In this document: positions 35,776-44,200 of the stretch, piece by piece
Layout of the letters: the number at the start of each line of letters is the position of its first letter
Position numbering within the stretch: position 1 is the first letter of the stretch
NCBI GenBank assembly: GCA_024653215.1
Contig: JANLFU010000008.1
Location: 1 to 64,000, forward strand
DNA length: 64,000 bases
Source of the DNA: Candidatus Saccharicenans sp.
GTDB lineage: Bacteria; Acidobacteriota; Aminicenantia; Aminicenantales; Saccharicenantaceae
Direction of reading: 5' to 3'
The notes under the pieces: generated by a model
Told to the model about the DNA's origin: nothing
What the model saw: only the letters and a program-made list of their open reading frames with translations
Database searches by the model: none
Translations under genes and position numbers: made by a program

Positions 35776-36933
35776 GTGGTCAGAGCCAAAACCGAGAAAT
35801 TCCCGGTTCAGTGGGTAGAAATAAATCGCCAGGCCTTTTTTCATAATGTCCAGGAGTTCAAGAACAGGCTGGGACAGGCCGGGTTGCTGGCTGTGGTCAA
35901 GGCCAATGCCTACGGTCACGGCCTGCTGGAAATTGCCGGGCTGGCCGCCGAGTGCGGAATCGATTGGTTTGGAGTGCACAGCCTGGAAGAGGGCCTGTGC
36001 CTGCGCCAGAAGGGTTTCAAACAAAAGATTCTCATTCTGGGTTACCTGCCTCTTTCCGGTGCGGAGGAAGCGGTCCGGGCTGAACTCAGATCGACGGTTT
36101 ATAACCTGGAAACACTGAAGGCGCTGGCCGCCGCGGCCAGGAAAGAGAACAAACCGGCCCTGGTTCACCTCAAAATTGAGACCGGAACCAACCGCCAGGG
36201 AATCGCCCTCAATAAGCTGGGTGGCTTTCTGAGCCTTATCAAAAAAAACCCGGAGCTGGTGCTGGAAGGCGTTTCTTCCCATTTCGCCAATATCGAGGAT
36301 ACCACCGATGATTACTATCCCCGCTACCAGCTCGAGAACTTCAAGCAGGCCGTAGAATTCCTGGAGAGTAACGGCTTCAAGGTTCCAATAAGGCACATGT
36401 CCTGCTCGGCCGCGGCCATCCTTTTTCCTGAAACTTATTTCAACCTGGCCCGGGTGGGCATCGGTCTTTACGGTCTCTGGCCGTCTAAGGAGACCCTGGT
36501 CTCCTGTCGTCTTCGTGGCCAGTCGCCACTGAAGTTAAAACCGGTGCTGAGCTGGAAGGCCAGGGTGGCCCAGATCAAGACCGTTCCCCGCGGTGCCTAC
36601 ATCGGCTACGGCTGCACCTACCGGACAACCAGGCCCACCAGGCTGGCCATCATTCCGGTCGGCTATTACGACGGCTACGACCGCGGGCTCTCCAACTCGG
36701 CCTACGTCCTGGTAAAAGGGAAGAGGGCTCAGGTCAGGGGCCGGGTCTGCATGGATTTTATCATGGTCGATATTACCGATATTCCCGGGGTCAGGCTAGA
36801 AGACCCGGTGACCCTCATCGGGGCCGAGGGCAGGGAGAAAATAACCGCCGACCAGCTGGCCTCCCTGGCCGGAACCATCAATTATGAAATGGTGACCAGG
36901 ATCAATCCCCTGATTCCCAGATTTATCGTTTGA
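35776..36933 (+). CDS. alr: Alanine racemase
   Basis: PLP enzyme that makes D-alanine for peptidoglycan. The PLP lysine is in LAVVKANAYGHG near 41. Other landmarks are VHLKIETGTNRQG, SHFANIED, and the GYGCTYRTTRPTRLAIIPVGYYDGY region (about 277-301) carrying the catalytic tyrosine, and VCMDFIMVDIT with the substrate-binding Met. Length 385. The start is GTG at 35776 with AGGAG ten bases upstream. No ATG nearby fits. Confidence 0.96.
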   Translation: MVRAKTEKFPVQWVEINRQAFFHNVQEFKNRLGQAGLLAVVKANAYGHGLLEIAGLAAECGIDWFGVHSLEEGLCLRQKGFKQKILILGYLPLSGAEEAVRAELRSTVYNLETLKALAAAARKENKPALVHLKIETGTNRQGIALNKLGGFLSLIKKNPELVLEGVSSHFANIEDTTDDYYPRYQLENFKQAVEFLESNGFKVPIRHMSCSAAAILFPETYFNLARVGIGLYGLWPSKETLVSCRLRGQSPLKLKPVLSWKARVAQIKTVPRGAYIGYGCTYRTTRPTRLAIIPVGYYDGYDRGLSNSAYVLVKGKRAQVRGRVCMDFIMVDITDIPGVRLEDPVTLIGAEGREKITADQLASLAGTINYEMVTRINPLIPRFIV

Positions 36934-37163: not shown

Positions 37164-37170
37164 TCAGATG

Positions 37171-40100
37171 ATGGAAAAAGAAAGTAACGGGCAAAAAAGA
37201 AAAAAGGGCAAATTATTAAGAATAGTTTCCTGGACGCTGTTTGGTCTGGTACTGCTTCTGGTCCTGGTCGGCCTGCTGCTTCAGACCCCCTGGGGCGGAA
37301 AACTGGTCTTGAAAAAAGCCGGGGACCTTATCCAATCAAAAACAGGCCTGACCCTGCAGGCCGATCGCTTGAGGCTGAATATTTTCAGGCTAAAAGCAAC
37401 CATCTCCGGGGTGAAATTAACCGGGTCTGAAAAGAGCCAGCTTCCGGTGGAATCGATTTCCTGCGACCGGCTCACTTTTCAGAGCGGCTGGTCGACCATT
37501 ACCGGCGGTGAACTGCGGATAAAAAACCTGGAATTAATAAAGCCGGTCATCAAACTAAAATCGCCGGCCGCCGGACCGGAAACCGGGGAACCCATCCCGG
37601 CACCTGAGTCAGAAGCAGGCAGGTCTTCCGGCTTTTCTTTTCGCATCGATAATTTCCGTCTGGAGCAGGGAGCCTTTTCTTTCGAAGAACCGGCCACCCC
37701 GTTATCGCTGAGTCTGAACGGGCTCGTGGCTTCCGTCCGGTTCGATGACACGAGCAATTTCCATCAGGCTTCTATAACCGGTCAGTCCGGTTCTCTCTCT
37801 CTGGGGAGGGGGATAGCTAAAATCACCGGGCTGGAGGTCAGGACCACTCTCAACCAGGAAAAAATTAAGCTGGAAAAGCTTTTCCTGTCCACTGAGCAGA
37901 CGGCGCTGGATATCTCCGGGACCTTAGAAAATTATCTTGAGACTCCGCGGCTAAACCTGAAAACCGCAGGCCACCTTGGCCTATCGGAACTGACTTCGCT
38001 TCTGGAGCCGGGCGATAGATATGCTGGCGACCTGAACTGGGACCTGGCCATCACCGGAACCACGGCCCGGCCTGAAGTTTCCGGAAAGGTGGCAGGTGGT
38101 GGGCTCAAACTTTATGGTCTGACCCCGGTCGACCTGGCCCTCAATATTGTCCCGGCCGGAGAAGCTGCTCACCTGGTGAAGGCTGAGTTCGGATACCATG
38201 GCGGAAAGATCTTCCTGGAAGGCAAAGTGCCGCCCGGGGTTGCAGGAGATTTACAGGCTTCTGTGAACCTGCAGCAGCTTGACCTCCGGCTGCTTCAGGC
38301 TTTTCTGCCTGATTTCCCGGTGGAACTGGCCTCGGAGATAAGTGGCCGATTGGAATTACGGGCCCGGCAATTATCAGCCGAGGCCATCGAAGGCCAGGCC
38401 GAACTGAAGCTGAAGCCTTATTTCCCGGCAGAGACATCAACAGGGCGACCGGCAGTTACGGTTTCCGGGGACCTGAATCTTAATTATGCTGCCGGGTTGC
38501 TTAACGTCAACAAGCTAAATCTTAATCTGCTGAGTTCCCAGCTGGAGCTTCGCGGCAAACTCGAACAACTGGAAACTATATCAGGCCAGTTGCGCTGGAA
38601 ACTGGATGACCTGAAATCAGTCATTCAAGCCATACAATCCAGTGGCCTGCCTGGAATTGCTACCGGACTGGAACAGCAGCTATCAGCCCTGGACAGCCTC
38701 AACGGTTCTGTTCTTCTGAACCTGCAACTCTCTGGAAAGCTCAACAGGCCGCAATTCAACCTGGTTCTGAACGGTGAGAACCTTGGGTTCCGCCAGATCG
38801 GACTGCCCGTCCTTGAAATTAAAGCTGATGGCAGCCTTCAGAATATTAACCTGGGCCGGTTTCTGGCCCGGTTTGATCGCGGTCAGATAGAGGCCACCGG
38901 CTCTCTCCGGCAACTGACTGCTACCCGGGAAATGGGTTTCAAGCTCGGCGGCCAGCTGGAAATATCAGACCTGGATATAACCCAGTTTTCCGGATTGGTG
39001 AATGAAGAGAGCAGACAGTACCTGAACGGCCTGTTGTCCGGGAAGGTGATACTGGCCGGCACCACCGCCCGGCCCGGAGCCAATTTTCAGGTTGCGGTTA
39101 CCGGAACCGAGGTTGGTAACATACATCTGGAAAAGCTGGAAGTTTCGGGCGATTACAGCCCTGAGGGACTGAAACTTCAGAAAATTGACCTCCGGCTCGG
39201 AGAGGATGGTCAGCTTCAGGGTCAGCTAAGTTTCAACCCGCGCTCTGGAGAAATCGGGGCCGAGCTGACCGGAAATAAGTTAAGAGCTGGTCTGTTCCAG
39301 GCCTGGCTGCCGGCTCTTAACGCCGGACTGTTGGACCTGCGCCTCGCGGCCAGTGGCTCCTGGAAAAGCCCGGTGGCTGACCTGAAAATAACGGGCCAGG
39401 GTTTCATGGTCGACCGGGTCTGGTTTCCATACTTTGAACTGAAGGCAACTTCCGACGGTCGGCTGGCCCGGGCTACCTTTAGCGTCCCCAGGTTTAACCT
39501 GAACCTGGAAAGCGAGCTGGAGTTAAAAGAGCCCTACCTTCTTTCCGGGTTGATACTTGTGAAGGACCTGCCGCTATCATCGCTGGCCGGGCTGCTGCCG
39601 GAAGTCGAGGAGACCAGCCCCCTGGTGGCCCTGAGTGCCACCACCAGGTTTTCCGTGCCCCTAAACAGGCCGGAAAAACTGGAAGCCGATTTTAAGTTTG
39701 AAAATTTTGACTTTGCCGGACTGGCCGTCTTGATGCCTTCCCTTCAAAGCCTTAAACCCGGCGGCCGGGCTGACGGCCGGGTTGAGCTCAAGGGTTTTGC
39801 CCCGGACCTGGAAGGCATGGAGCTCAGGCTGGAGATACCATCCCTCAACCTGCAACTGGGCGGCAACGAAATTAGGAACGAAGGCCCCTTGACCGTACAG
39901 CTCAGGGAAAGGAAGCTACTGGTTAGCAGCTTCATCCTGAACTCGGGGCGGTCAAGATTCAGCCTGGGGGGAGGAGCAGAACTTAAAGACCCGAAGAATC
40001 CGGTCCTGGACTTTTCTCTGAACGGAGACCTTGACCTGTCTGATTTCGGGGCCTGGTTGTCCGGGATGCAGGTAGGAGGGAAATTGCAACTTCAGGCGGC

Positions 40101-43100
40101 GGTCAGGGGAGACCTGGAGGAGCCCTTGATCGAAGGTTCCGGGTCGATGAACGAGGTTTTCCTGAGAATGCAGGACCTGCCGCTAATCCTCAGCAACACC
40201 ACGGCTCGGTTCAGGGTTGATAACTCCCAGCTGGTCCTGGACAGATTGGAGGGTCAGGCCAATTCTGGCAGCTTTTCAGGCACGGGCCGGGCCCTGTTCG
40301 GCCAGAATTTTTCCCTGACCGCGGCCAGGCTTGATTTTAACCTTCGCGATTTTGATTTCAATTATCCGCAGGGATTTAATAGCCTGTCCGGAGCCAGCCT
40401 GGTCCTGAGCAAGGACAAAAGGGGCTGGGCACTATCAGGTGATCTTTCCATTCTGAATGCCAGCTATCGCCAGGATTTTTACCCGAGCACCCAGGGACTG
40501 AGAATGGCCTTGAGCAAGGTTTCTCCCGTGGGAACGGAGTACCCGGCTTTTCTCTATGACCTGCCGCTCGATATCAATATCAGGACTGTCGAGAACATCA
40601 TCGTCAAGAATAATCTGGCCGACCTGGAACTCAAGGCCAACCTGAACCTCAAGGGTACCATTCCCGCCCCCATTCTTTCCGGCCGGGCTGAAAACGCCTA
40701 CAGTGGAGAGCTGGTTATCGGCGAGCGAAAGTACACCGTGGAAAGGCTGCGGGTCGACTTTCTCGGCCGGGAAAATCTCGAGCCCAACCTGGATATCTTT
40801 CTCAAGAGCACGGTCTATGACGGGGAAGAAGAGGTTGAAGTCAGCCTGGTGATGTCGGGCACCCCTTCGGACCTTAAATTTTCGCTGACCTCGGTTCCCT
40901 CCAGGTCGCAGGAAGACCTGGCCTCGCTGCTGCTGACGGGAAAAAGCCTGCGCGAGGTTCAGGGCTCAGCCCTGAATACCATCAGCAGCCAGCTGGTTCA
41001 GCATTTTTCCAGCCCGCTGGCCTCGCCCGTGACCAGGACTCTAAAAAAATGGCTGAAGGCAGAGGATGTGATTCTGGAACCACTCAACATCGCCACCCTG
41101 CAGGACCCCGGGGCCCGGTTGACCATAAGGAAAAGAATGACCCGGGACTTTGCGGTCACTTACTCTATCGACCTGACCAACAGCCAGTACCAAACCTGGA
41201 TTCTGGACTACCGCATAAAAAGGAATTTTTCGACCCGGGGATTCCGACGTGACGACGGGGTGGTTGGCCTGAACCTCAGGCACAGGATTAATTTCGGACA
41301 GATGGCTGAAACCGGGAGCCAGGAAAGGATCATAAAGAAAAAGCTGGCTGGAATTGAAATAAGAGGAGAGCCTGTTTTTACAGAAAAAGAAGTGAGCCGG
41401 GCCCTGAAGCTCAAGCCTGGACGCAACTACCGGACAGCTGCTTTCAGGCAGGCCCGGAATCGCCTGGAGGCTTTCTATCGGAAAAGGGGCTACTTGAATG
41501 CCAGGATAGAAGACGAGCTGGTGGAATCCGGTCAAGACAGCCTGGCCTTACAGCTGAACATTAAGGCCGGACAGCCAATCAGCTTTAAATTTACCGGAGA
41601 CAAGATCCCGGCCAGGGCCCGCAAAAAAGCCCTGAACTCCTGGGTGGGACGATTGCCAGAAGAGGCCAACATATACCAGCTTAAAGCCGTCCTGCTTAAC
41701 GAGCTCAACCGGCGTGGCTATTACCAGGCTGAGGTTGAACTGGTCAAAAAGCCCGAGCCAGGACAGACCATCTATGAAATTTCAACCAGGCTGAACGGGA
41801 AATGGAAAATCGGGAGCTTCCGTCTGACTGGAGACCCGGTTTTCAAGGAGCCCGTGATCAAAGCCATAGTTTCCGACTATTTTGGAGCCAAAGCCCGTGG
41901 TCTCTGGAACCTCATCTACGACCGCAGGATAGCCCTGGAGCTCATTGAATATTACTACCAGGAAAACGGCTACCTGAGCCCGAAAATAGAACCCCCGGTC
42001 ATTGAGGCCAACACCGCAAAACGGTTGCTCGACCTGACCCTGAAGATTGAGGCCGGACCCAAAAGCCAGGTCAATTCTCTGGAAGTGAAGGGAAACACCA
42101 GGTTCCAGACAGCCGAGCTTGAGGCTATCCTCAATCTTAAACCCGGCCAGACCTTCAGCTGGCCTGCCCTGAACGAGGACCGGACGGTGCTGCTAAACCG
42201 CTACCGCAGCGCCGGCTTCAAGGATGCCAGGGTGGAGATAGAAGCCCGACCGGTAGAGGGGGGAGCTGATTATGATGTCAGGATAAATATTGAAGAAGGT
42301 CCGGTTTATACCATCTCCAGCGTTGATATTGAGGGAGCCAGGCGCAGCAAAGCCTCCTTCGTTATGAAGGAAAGTGGCCTCAAGCCCGGGGAACCGGTCA
42401 GCCTGGAACGTCTGGCCCAGGCTCAGAAAAATCTTTATGACGCAGCTACCTTCCAGGCAGTCAACGTTTCCTCAGAATCGGAAAATACCCCGGAACATCA
42501 GGAAAAAGTCCTGGTCCAGGTCCGGGAAATGCCCTGGCTCAGCCTGACCTACGGTCTTCAGTACAACACCGATACCAAATTTGAAGGATTTGCCCAGCTT
42601 GATTTCAACAACCTCTTCGGTCGAGGCTGGAACAGCCTGCTCTACTTCAGGGCCAACCAGAGGCAGCAGGATGCTCGGGCTACGCTGAGGATACCCTACA
42701 TTTTCTCCCGCAAGATGGAATCGCTTCTTTCTGTCTACTATCGCAAGGACATCAGAGACCTGTTCATAACCGAGGAGGTGGGGGCCAGCTTCCAGCAAAA
42801 GATAATGATCGTCAGGGGTTTTGACCTGAGCTGGGTTTACCGTTTGAGCCGGATTCATGATTATGAAAAAGAACCATCCTGGCCATTTCCCTATGATGTC
42901 CGGATGACCAGCTCCGAGCTTTCGCTGTTGCTCAGCCGGGATACCAGGGATGACCGCTTCGACCCAAAACACGGAACACTTCTGACCAGCAGCTTGAGCT
43001 ATGCTCCACGCTACCTCGGTTCCGACCTCAATTATGTTCGTTCTTTTACCCAGTTTACCATGTACAAGTCACTGCTGCCGGGGGTGGTCTGGGCCTCCTG

Positions 43101-43503
43101 CTACCGGTTGGGTCTGGCCAGTGCTTTCGGCGAGGTCCTGATACCCAGCAAGCGCTTTTTTGCCGGCGGCGGCACCAGCATCCGGGGCTTCAAGCTCGAT
43201 GCTGTCGGCCCGATCGATATCTGGACCGGACTGCCGGAAGGCGGAGAAGCCATGCTGGTTACCAACCAGGAATTAAGATTCCCGATTTATAAAATTTTCA
43301 GGGGAGTGGTCTTCCTGGATGCCGGTAACGTCTATTCCAGGCTGTCCGATTTCAACCCCGGACGCCTGAGAACAGGTGCAGGTTTAGGTCTGAGAATAGA
43401 TAGCCCGCTCGGTCTGGTCAGAATTGATTACGGGTTCAACTTGAAGCCACGTTTCGATGAACCCAGGAGCACTCTTTTTATCAGTATCGGCCAGGCTTTT
43501 TAA
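37171..43503 (+). CDS. TamB-Omp85 (TamA/BamA-like) single-chain fusion
   Basis: About 2110 residues. A basic N-terminus and a membrane span (about 17-38) anchor it in the inner membrane. Up to about 1385 it has the long beta-rich, repetitive architecture of TamB/AsmA-like proteins, ending with the TamB C-terminal domain (TSVPSRSQEDLASLLLTG near 1245, DPGARLTIRKRMTRDF near 1313). Five POTRA-like repeats follow (starting near 1394, 1471, 1548, 1635 and 1716). An Omp85 barrel begins near 1790, with the GGGTSIRGF loop-6 motif near 2001 and a C-terminal Phe. TamB and TamA normally are separate proteins that link the two membranes. Here one chain would span the periplasm. ATG 37168 is also possible as start. 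Likely role: outer-membrane biogenesis or lipid transport. Confidence 0.9.
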   Translation: MEKESNGQKRKKGKLLRIVSWTLFGLVLLLVLVGLLLQTPWGGKLVLKKAGDLIQSKTGLTLQADRLRLNIFRLKATISGVKLTGSEKSQLPVESISCDRLTFQSGWSTITGGELRIKNLELIKPVIKLKSPAAGPETGEPIPAPESEAGRSSGFSFRIDNFRLEQGAFSFEEPATPLSLSLNGLVASVRFDDTSNFHQASITGQSGSLSLGRGIAKITGLEVRTTLNQEKIKLEKLFLSTEQTALDISGTLENYLETPRLNLKTAGHLGLSELTSLLEPGDRYAGDLNWDLAITGTTARPEVSGKVAGGGLKLYGLTPVDLALNIVPAGEAAHLVKAEFGYHGGKIFLEGKVPPGVAGDLQASVNLQQLDLRLLQAFLPDFPVELASEISGRLELRARQLSAEAIEGQAELKLKPYFPAETSTGRPAVTVSGDLNLNYAAGLLNVNKLNLNLLSSQLELRGKLEQLETISGQLRWKLDDLKSVIQAIQSSGLPGIATGLEQQLSALDSLNGSVLLNLQLSGKLNRPQFNLVLNGENLGFRQIGLPVLEIKADGSLQNINLGRFLARFDRGQIEATGSLRQLTATREMGFKLGGQLEISDLDITQFSGLVNEESRQYLNGLLSGKVILAGTTARPGANFQVAVTGTEVGNIHLEKLEVSGDYSPEGLKLQKIDLRLGEDGQLQGQLSFNPRSGEIGAELTGNKLRAGLFQAWLPALNAGLLDLRLAASGSWKSPVADLKITGQGFMVDRVWFPYFELKATSDGRLARATFSVPRFNLNLESELELKEPYLLSGLILVKDLPLSSLAGLLPEVEETSPLVALSATTRFSVPLNRPEKLEADFKFENFDFAGLAVLMPSLQSLKPGGRADGRVELKGFAPDLEGMELRLEIPSLNLQLGGNEIRNEGPLTVQLRERKLLVSSFILNSGRSRFSLGGGAELKDPKNPVLDFSLNGDLDLSDFGAWLSGMQVGGKLQLQAAVRGDLEEPLIEGSGSMNEVFLRMQDLPLILSNTTARFRVDNSQLVLDRLEGQANSGSFSGTGRALFGQNFSLTAARLDFNLRDFDFNYPQGFNSLSGASLVLSKDKRGWALSGDLSILNASYRQDFYPSTQGLRMALSKVSPVGTEYPAFLYDLPLDINIRTVENIIVKNNLADLELKANLNLKGTIPAPILSGRAENAYSGELVIGERKYTVERLRVDFLGRENLEPNLDIFLKSTVYDGEEEVEVSLVMSGTPSDLKFSLTSVPSRSQEDLASLLLTGKSLREVQGSALNTISSQLVQHFSSPLASPVTRTLKKWLKAEDVILEPLNIATLQDPGARLTIRKRMTRDFAVTYSIDLTNSQYQTWILDYRIKRNFSTRGFRRDDGVVGLNLRHRINFGQMAETGSQERIIKKKLAGIEIRGEPVFTEKEVSRALKLKPGRNYRTAAFRQARNRLEAFYRKRGYLNARIEDELVESGQDSLALQLNIKAGQPISFKFTGDKIPARARKKALNSWVGRLPEEANIYQLKAVLLNELNRRGYYQAEVELVKKPEPGQTIYEISTRLNGKWKIGSFRLTGDPVFKEPVIKAIVSDYFGAKARGLWNLIYDRRIALELIEYYYQENGYLSPKIEPPVIEANTAKRLLDLTLKIEAGPKSQVNSLEVKGNTRFQTAELEAILNLKPGQTFSWPALNEDRTVLLNRYRSAGFKDARVEIEARPVEGGADYDVRINIEEGPVYTISSVDIEGARRSKASFVMKESGLKPGEPVSLERLAQAQKNLYDAATFQAVNVSSESENTPEHQEKVLVQVREMPWLSLTYGLQYNTDTKFEGFAQLDFNNLFGRGWNSLLYFRANQRQQDARATLRIPYIFSRKMESLLSVYYRKDIRDLFITEEVGASFQQKIMIVRGFDLSWVYRLSRIHDYEKEPSWPFPYDVRMTSSELSLLLSRDTRDDRFDPKHGTLLTSSLSYAPRYLGSDLNYVRSFTQFTMYKSLLPGVVWASCYRLGLASAFGEVLIPSKRFFAGGGTSIRGFKLDAVGPIDIWTGLPEGGEAMLVTNQELRFPIYKIFRGVVFLDAGNVYSRLSDFNPGRLRTGAGLGLRIDSPLGLVRIDYGFNLKPRFDEPRSTLFISIGQAF

Positions 43504-43510
43504 GTGGCCC

Positions 43511-44152
43511 TTAAATTCTGCTCAGCAGGGCCTTGACCTGGGCTGCTTCTGGAGCTTCCGGAGCCAGGTATAAGAATTTCTGGAAGTGGGTTATGGTCAG
43601 GTCCTTGCGCCCTTTCTGGTAATAAGCCAGCCCGATATTATAGTGGGCATAGGCGTGGTTGCCCTTTAACTGCAGGCATTTCTGCAGGTCGGCGATGGCC
43701 AGGTCCAGTTTCTTCTGGTAGCCCCGGAGCAGGCCCCGGTGGTAGTAAGCCTCGGCGCAATTGGGATCTTTCTGGACGGCGGTGTTGAGCTGCGTTTCGG
43801 CGCTGGTATAGTTGGCCTTGGCGATGTCGTACTGGGCCTTGCCGATGTAACCGTAAGGAGAATTAGGAGCAGACTGAAGGATCTTGTTGAACTGGGAGAG
43901 GGCTGCCTCCGGATTCTTCTCCTTGATCAGGGCCGACCCGAGGTAATAGTAGAGGTCGTTATTAACAAAATTTTCGGCCACCAGCTGGTCAAAAATGGCT
44001 TTGGCTTCGGCCGTCTTGCCAGCCTCAAAATAAGCTATACCTGTCTGGAGCCGTTCCTGCTGGGTCTGGGCCGGCAGGGACTGGTTCAGGCCAAGGAACA
44101 GGGCTGACAGCAGGGCCAGCGTCAGCCAGAGCCGGTTGGTTCTATTTTTCAT
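43511..44152 (-). CDS. Secreted TPR-repeat protein
   Basis: 213 residues with a signal peptide (LWLTLALLSALFLGL, cleavage after LPAQ near 29) and at least five tetratricopeptide repeats (for example GIAYFEAGKTAEAKAIFDQL, YYYLGSALIKEKNPEAALSQF, YYHRGLLRGYQKKLDLAIADL, HYNIGLAYYQKGRKDLTITHF). TPRs bind partner proteins; it is presumably periplasmic. It converges on the TamB-Omp85 gene, leaving 7 bp between stops. Start at ATG 44152 with AAGGAGG; longer in-frame extension lacks a signal sequence arrangement. Confidence 0.85.
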   Translation of the reverse strand: MKNRTNRLWLTLALLSALFLGLNQSLPAQTQQERLQTGIAYFEAGKTAEAKAIFDQLVAENFVNNDLYYYLGSALIKEKNPEAALSQFNKILQSAPNSPYGYIGKAQYDIAKANYTSAETQLNTAVQKDPNCAEAYYHRGLLRGYQKKLDLAIADLQKCLQLKGNHAYAHYNIGLAYYQKGRKDLTITHFQKFLYLAPEAPEAAQVKALLSRI

Positions 44153-44170
44153 TGCGTCCTCCTTCAAATC

Positions 44171-44200
44171 TTTATACCACAAGATAAGGGGGTAAGACAA
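44171..44200 (-). promoter_or_regulatory. Promoter for the TPR gene
   Basis: On the minus strand TTGTCT (44200-44195), 18 bp, TATAAA (44176-44171), immediately before the AAGGAGG leader. Confidence 0.45.

Follow-up and report, generated by a model that had tools for sequence, protein, structure and literature searches.

A TamB-Omp85 fusion gene in Acidobacteriota: a candidate single-chain translocation and assembly module

The fusion gene and its domain order

The window analysed here was a 64,000-nucleotide stretch of contig JANLFU010000008.1 from Candidatus Saccharicenans sp., and the gene under study occupies 37171..43503 on its plus strand. It encodes one protein of 2110 amino acids (aa) in which a TamB part is followed by an Omp85 part. 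TamB and its Omp85 partner are normally separate proteins. A second in-frame ATG is adjacent at 37168 and gives 2111 aa, in agreement with the 2111-codon frame described in an earlier note on this DNA. Translation from 37168 or 37171 to 43503 showed no internal stop. Residue numbers below refer to the 2110-aa protein and nucleotide coordinates to the window; all features of the protein are encoded on the plus strand.

The N-terminus carries a hydrophobic segment at residues 10-37 (37198..37281), which was a helix in the AlphaFold2 model and gave a top 19-residue hydropathy of 2.70. On hydropathy and the model it was read as an uncleaved signal anchor, as expected of a TamB, and no A-x-A cleavage site was seen by eye. 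A repeat region of AsmA/TamB type was located at residues 60-1130 (37348..40560) from the match to DUF748 (AsmA-like; residues 1-238, 69.8 bits), about 60 predicted strands and strand alternation. The beta-repeat part as a whole comprises about 1,300 residues and closes with the Pfam TamB domain PF04357 at residues 1026-1372 (40246..41286; 108.1 bits, curated cut-off 22.4, profile 3-380 of 381). The last TamB strand was modelled at residues 1365-1375 (41263..41295) and aligned in the fused relatives. In a separate TamB this strand is at or beside the C-terminus, whereas in the fusion 735 residues come after residue 1375. A linker of 15 residues with a low model confidence (predicted local distance difference test, pLDDT) was found at 1376-1390 (41296..41340). 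Five POTRA domains followed at about 1391-1465, 1470-1540, 1546-1627, 1633-1708 and 1714-1786 (41341..42528). They were assigned from the secondary structure of the model and from PF07244, which gave 134.2 bits in total, with five stretches at E ≤1 and three at E ≤0.001. The Omp85 beta-barrel PF01103 covered residues 1814-2110 (42610..43500; 156 bits, profile 1-325 of 325) and ended with a terminal Phe. The barrel motif GGGTSIRGF was translated at residues 1999-2007 (43165..43191). By Pfam, POTRAs plus a barrel place this half in the Omp85 superfamily, and all four families, DUF748, TamB, POTRA and Omp85, exceeded their curated cut-offs. The profile search proposed in the earlier note (TamB, POTRA, Bac_surface_Ag) was in this way positive throughout. 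Pfam, hydropathy and AlphaFold2 confirmed the anchor, the TamB repeats and the C-terminal TamB domain it had named; PF01103 and the translation did the same for the barrel, its motif and the C-terminal Phe.

AlphaFold2 was run in two pieces, residues 1-1150 (15 sequences) and residues 1000-2110 (22 sequences). The first model (pLDDT 79.8, predicted TM-score (pTM) 0.49) showed about 60 strands after the helix at 10-37. The second (pLDDT 73.0, pTM 0.62) showed the strand at 1365-1375, five consecutive POTRA units within 1391-1786, each with the order beta-alpha-alpha-beta-beta, and the barrel. The junction that the earlier note wished to see modelled was flanked by the last TamB strand and POTRA1, and the joint itself was predicted with low confidence. 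Alternation of hydrophobic and polar residues in the TamB strands was above that of shuffles (z = 7.7; 0 of 1000 shuffles as high). The model and this test together are consistent with stacked beta strands with a hydrophobic face, as in TamB. In Foldseek, the TamB part matched apoB (ranks 1-3 and 5), LPD-3 (9cap, rank 4), LptD and TamAB (9xdc_B, rank 22, E 0.029). These matches are lipid carriers and TamB, and the modelled likeness to bridge-like lipid transfer proteins is weak and at the level of the fold. The remainder of the fusion matched BamA first and TamA from rank 47.

Spread of the joined frame in related bacteria

The arrangement was followed in 40 loci from other genomes, which were chosen mostly for long frames and so give no estimate of prevalence. 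The C-terminal TamB domain, POTRA and barrel were found in one open reading frame (ORF) in 33 of the 40, the window not counted. The first 20 loci came from the window's own family and order, most with long frames and some as contrasts. They comprised 15 fusions, three separate pairs (L081-L083) and two loci cut by the contig (L075, L076). The next 20 were taken across the phylum with frames of at least 2000 aa, and 18 were fusions. In a second genome collection, with one genome per species, the C-terminal TamB domain and the barrel shared an ORF in 22 of 22 loci, some contigs being common to both collections. By record name, 19 of these 22 belong to Candidatus Saccharicenans, Aminicenantes or Acidobacteria/Acidobacteriota; the scan used peptide patterns of close relatives and says little on other phyla. 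Pfam TamB, POTRA and Omp85 were all found in each of the 22 fusions scanned, window included. A hydrophobic N-terminal segment was present in 26 of the 30 fused ORFs with an uncut start. When plasmids were searched by tblastn with the window protein, 28 records matched, and in each the match covered less than 80% of the query.

In the other two long-framed loci, both of family f38, tamB and an Omp85 gene share a frame but are divided by one stop codon (L094, 3156-10283, TAA; L099, 3148-10236, TAG). A long open frame alone was rejected as proof of fusion by these two, since 2 of 20 long frames were two in-frame ORFs. Their arrangement pictures how a fusion could arise or decay.

An assembly or frameshift artefact could in principle join two neighbour genes, and separate adjacent genes in this phylum also run in the order tamB-omp85, with one in-frame stop separating them in L094 and L099. 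However, the same joint recurred in the 33 loci and throughout the second collection, with its overlapping contigs. The fused relatives also ranged in identity to the window protein from 20% over the whole length up to 96% over residues 1000-2110 (L105, Candidatus Saccharicenans), and fused and separate forms were strongly clustered on trees. The same joint in many related bacteria means that the fusion is not an assembly error. The artefact is refuted for the family, and the chance left to it is negligible. The earlier note's claim of one translated chain was supported by the sequence and by these 33 confirmed relatives. It had also named two observations that would speak against the claim, a break near 41340 and relatives with two genes in the same place. 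The window contained no such break, and relatives with the alanine racemase gene (alr) upstream and the TPR-repeat gene downstream had the C-terminal TamB domain and Omp85 in one ORF. One of these same-neighbour relatives, L117 (7010-13325), is a fusion with a frame break inside its TamB half and a contig coverage of 2.95.

The own family comprised 34 genomes in four genera. Within the own genus, 16 of 19 genomes had a TamB frame of at least 1949 aa; the other three were G023 with a contig-cut fusion (its contig is as long as that of the fused L113), G024 with a 1011-aa frame, and G028 (74% complete) with no second TamB match. In the case of sister genus g4 (G003-G015), none of 13 genomes had a frame of fused length, and each had a single TamB match, whose frame measured 357-1426 aa. 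In L082 (G007), the only g4 locus examined, a TamB ORF of 1417 aa overlapped a separate Omp85 ORF by 26 bases. TamB frames of at least 1700 aa were found in 24 of 94 genomes of the own order. Across the phylum, 349 of 396 genomes gave a TamB match, with at least 24 frames of 2000 aa or more, 20 of which were examined.

Outside the own order, the fusion was the sole PF04357 match in 12 of 18 genomes with a confirmed fusion, and the other six had two or three; the count comes from a search with a loose first look, in which misses are possible. The 12 genomes were G141, G164, G184, G192, G209, G218, G235, G284, G327, G341, G351 and G364, eight of them at least 92% complete. G209 (98% complete) had two Omp85 matches, the fusion and an 887-aa frame (L148) that fell in the BamA clade. 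Further Omp85 matches in long frames were seen at G279:C116:86687-87679 (2309 aa), G357:C22:2085-2969 (1940 aa) and G332:C2:106411-107346 (2242 aa), and these are possible second fusions there.

Kinship of the two halves and the joint between them

Trees were built for the Omp85 module (53 rows) and the TamB domain (56 rows), and a third Omp85 tree added BamA-like proteins. L010, L074, L100, L127, L128 and L145 were left out of the Omp85 module tree and the approximately unbiased (AU) test, L074, L075, L076, L100, L127 and L128 out of the TamB domain tree, and L066, L074, L077, L078, L079, L100, L127, L128 and L145 out of the Omp85 tree with BamA. Barrel matches of 60 bits or less were excluded from a barrel row set. 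Both half-trees gave the same three fusion groups, of 21 rows (the window and all its class rows in the trees), 9 rows and 2 rows (family f20). The f20 fusions sat inside the separate forms, with L144 as the nearest separate neighbour in the Omp85 module tree and L142 in the TamB tree. One clade of all fusions was rejected (AU p = 0.000136). A clade of the two larger groups was compatible (AU p = 0.455; this grouping was picked after the tree was seen). The rejection of a single clade points to at least two origins of the fusion, or to one origin with fission or loss and re-fusion. Fission of an ancestral fusion could also have given the separate pairs, but the signal peptide and the more extended POTRA region of the separate partner make this less likely.

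In the third tree, 28 fused and 15 separate TamB-neighbouring Omp85s formed one group with support 100/98, as expected of a translocation and assembly module (TAM). The 15 BamA-like proteins formed one clade (100/100) without the fusion's Omp85 half. BamA as the source of this half, suggested by the five POTRAs, was ruled out by the tree with these 15 rows. The earlier note had given five POTRAs, the BamA number; the count was confirmed in the AlphaFold2 model, and a BamA identity was not. On the trees, the Omp85 half groups with the long-armed Omp85s encoded beside TamB, outside BamA. Six other TamB-neighbouring Omp85s made up a third lobe; their genes precede tamB, and their POTRA regions, where uncut, measure about 280 aa. 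This lobe was taken as the outgroup, so that the root is set by choice. The Omp85 gene was also first in 3 of the 15 separate partners of the fusion group (L137, L141, L146). In L130-L133 the Omp85 gene preceded tamB and its POTRA region was short, at about 280 aa, which is nearer TamA length. These short-POTRA Omp85s beside tamB indicate that TAMs of more than one kind occur in the phylum.

Profiles were compared with known systems. The fusion shares five POTRAs and an Omp85 barrel with BamA, but its TIGR03303 score of 291.2 bits was just under the cut-off of 297.15. The separate partner P0003 gave 344.7 bits, and BamA and this partner are therefore not distinguished by TIGR03303 alone. With TamA-TamB of Proteobacteria the fusion shares the TamB domain and predicted groove with an inner-membrane anchor, and an Omp85 partner with POTRAs. 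However, there are two proteins there and one ORF here. The fusion does not end at the TamB domain as a TamB does, and at the gene level it is not a two-chain TAM. The NCBIfam TamA equivalog NF047950 gave 110.1 bits against a cut-off of 625. TamA has three POTRAs according to the accessible part of PMC4104836, compared with five in the fusion model.

The span from the TamB end to the barrel was 396-478 aa in 32 fusions, with a median of 436.5. The comparable span was 442 aa in the genome's BamA, 587 in its separate partner and 555-647 in nine other TamB-first partners, which were those with a usable N-terminus (the values of 790 for L135 and 835 for L144 depend on doubtful starts, and those of cut rows carry no meaning). 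The fused modules matched the genome's separate partner from its residue 164-184 onward in the window and in 6 of 7 relatives compared; in L089 the match began at 292. A match starting at 164-184 means that the Omp85 half is without the signal peptide and about the two first POTRAs of the separate partner. Between the last TamB strand and POTRA1 there were 10-33 residues (median 17) in 34 fusions, two f20 values of 10 coming from a gappy alignment. No signal-peptide-like segment was found at the junction in these 34 (top 15-residue hydropathy 1.59). From the alignments, the tie appears to occupy the place of the separate partner's signal peptide and about two first POTRAs.

Such a chain might also be a polyprotein, exported by one signal anchor and then cut in the linker to give an ordinary TamB and Omp85 pair. 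The linker was variable, mostly polar in the 34 fusions and poorly predicted, and the last TamB strand was still recognisable at the joint, as though still acting as a terminus. The lack of an own signal peptide in the Omp85 half would fit as well. However, a conserved cleavage motif was not seen by eye in the linkers of the 34 fusions, and linker length was held within a narrow range. Cleavage was considered unlikely.

A candidate bridge between the membranes and its setting

We propose that the fusion is a single-chain TAM that bridges both membranes, with a probability of about two in three. The N-terminal helix would remain in the inner membrane as an uncleaved signal anchor. In the TamB part, stacked beta strands would build a long groove that has a hydrophobic face and crosses the periplasm, and phospholipids, perhaps outer-membrane protein segments too, could pass along it. 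Some 15 residues would connect the C-terminal TamB domain to POTRA1 of an Omp85 related to those whose genes neighbour tamB in this phylum. In N-to-C order, the inner membrane would receive the anchor first, and folding of the groove in the periplasm would follow. Last, the barrel assembly machinery (BAM) would take up the barrel, with Phe at its end, and insert it into the outer membrane. The chain would stay intact after export, and the covalent tie would fix a 1:1 stoichiometry. The earlier note had found insertion at both ends not obvious. It may be less odd than it first appears because the anchor is made first, the barrel last, and a canonical BamA is present in the genome. In the parts of PMC12800296 that are accessible, cryo-electron microscopy (cryo-EM) of E. 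coli TamAB shows that residues 1251-1259 of TamB, its last strand, pair with strand 1 of the TamA barrel, that four strands of TamB lie within this barrel, and that there are contacts to POTRA1-3. The complex is described there as trans-envelope, and phospholipid transport in the TamB cavity is proposed. The fusion keeps the parts that correspond to this complex.

Several observations weigh against the bridge. The 15-residue tie spans at most about 55 Å by estimate, at the far end of a five-POTRA arm; this arm is about 110 Å in BamA. With so short a tie to POTRA1, cis pairing as in E. coli needs the POTRA arm folded back. Both AlphaFold2 models were moderate, and a pLDDT of about 40 at the joint means that the placement of the TamB and POTRA domains was not fixed by the model. 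Strong alternation (difference >2) was found in only 35 of 67 TamB strands, the TM-scores of the named Foldseek matches for the TamB part were low (0.12-0.24), and a TamB chain was absent among the 57 PDB sequence matches of the fusion protein. The fusion scored 67.6 bits with the NCBIfam TamB equivalog NF047952, whose cut-off is 825, and the separate TamB of this genome fails to reach E 0.001 with that model. In L072 (3163-9582) and L073 (688-6859) the anchor piece was a separate ORF upstream of a fused ORF of 1732 or 1726 aa, and L086 and L091 showed no anchor within the ORF as called. The separate pair is retained in the window's genome, so that the fusion may do another job. The one-chain bridge is predicted from sequence and models.

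The tie to POTRA1 is a real structural puzzle with three possible solutions: a folded-back arm, a TamB end that engages a POTRA or a neighbour barrel, or a cut linker. In the second case the tied TamB end would miss its own barrel seam, and its last strand would augment a POTRA or enter the barrel of a neighbour copy, giving a dimer or lattice and not a 1:1 bridge. The short linker, set against the E. coli pairing of the last TamB strand with barrel strand 1, would favour this, as would a last strand that aligns among the fusions though it is not terminal any more. However, the geometry is an estimate, and pairing in trans seemed quite improbable. We keep the single-chain 1:1 bridge as the preferred reading.

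The window's genome (2.6 Mb, 36 contigs, 91.76% complete) gave two PF04357 and six PF01103 matches, the fusion included in both counts. The earlier note proposed to look for a missing separate tamA; in this genome a separate pair is present, with 4 bp between tamB and the Omp85 gene (contig C33; L009, 4793-10910; 1131 and 905 aa). This Omp85 partner begins with a signal-peptide-like segment, and its POTRA region, of about 587 aa, corresponds to about seven domains by length. The canonical BamA is a 773-aa protein on C11 with 485.2 bits for TIGR03303 (cut-off 297.15). In this genome the fusion is an extra TAM beside the separate pair and the canonical BamA. The fusion gene itself stands alone. 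Upstream, alr ends at 36933. Downstream, a convergent TPR-repeat gene lies on the minus strand at 43511-44200, 7 bases past the fusion stop; judged by eye, its product begins like a signal peptide. Close relatives whose contigs reach both sides (L105-L112, L114-L118, L120, L122) kept the order alr, fusion, TPR. Remoter relatives had a TPR homologue near the fusion at 37% (L067), 47% (L121), 41% (L123) and 60% (L124) identity, and none was found near it in L070, L125 and L126. The TPR protein may be a functional partner of the fusion.

Other TamB systems also consist of two proteins. Tic236-Toc75 of chloroplasts is one in which a TamB-like protein reaches an Omp85 protein across the envelope; unlike the fusion, they are separate. 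TamL-TamB of Bacteroidota and BamA-TamB of Borreliella represent other Omp85 partners of TamB, and they are separate proteins according to titles and abstracts. Second BamA copies, some with seven POTRAs, were described in Acidobacteria (Heinz et al. 2015, PMC4494059, accessible text). They come from the phylum of the named relatives and resemble, by length, the separate homologue of the window's genome, but they are separate from TamB there. The words fusion and fused were absent from the accessible text of PMC4494059, which treats the evolution of TAM, and no passage on a TamB-Omp85 fusion was found in the accessible parts of PMC13067283 and PMC11014939. The accessible part of PMC4104836 mentions TamB once and DUF490 not at all. 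In the openly accessible literature, subscription papers and preprints being outside the scope, no description of a TamB-Omp85 fusion was found.

These results suggest a natural covalent contact between TamB and Omp85 with 1:1 stoichiometry, which bears on whether TAM is a stable trans-envelope conduit. To our knowledge, it is unusual for one chain to combine an uncleaved anchor in the inner membrane with a barrel in the outer membrane, and this raises the question of whether BAM can fold a barrel while the far end of the protein stays in the inner membrane. The fusion would offer a naturally occurring single chain for cryo-EM and for assays of lipid transfer, with sister genus g4 as a natural absence for comparison. 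In many Acidobacteriota the covalent TAM may well be the cell's only TAM, a proposal for which we see the balance as even. Anchored in the inner membrane, folded as a barrel in the outer membrane and with its TamB end tied to POTRA1, it would have to engage the barrel differently from E. coli TamAB: the arm might fold back, or the TamB end might augment a POTRA or pair with a neighbour copy.

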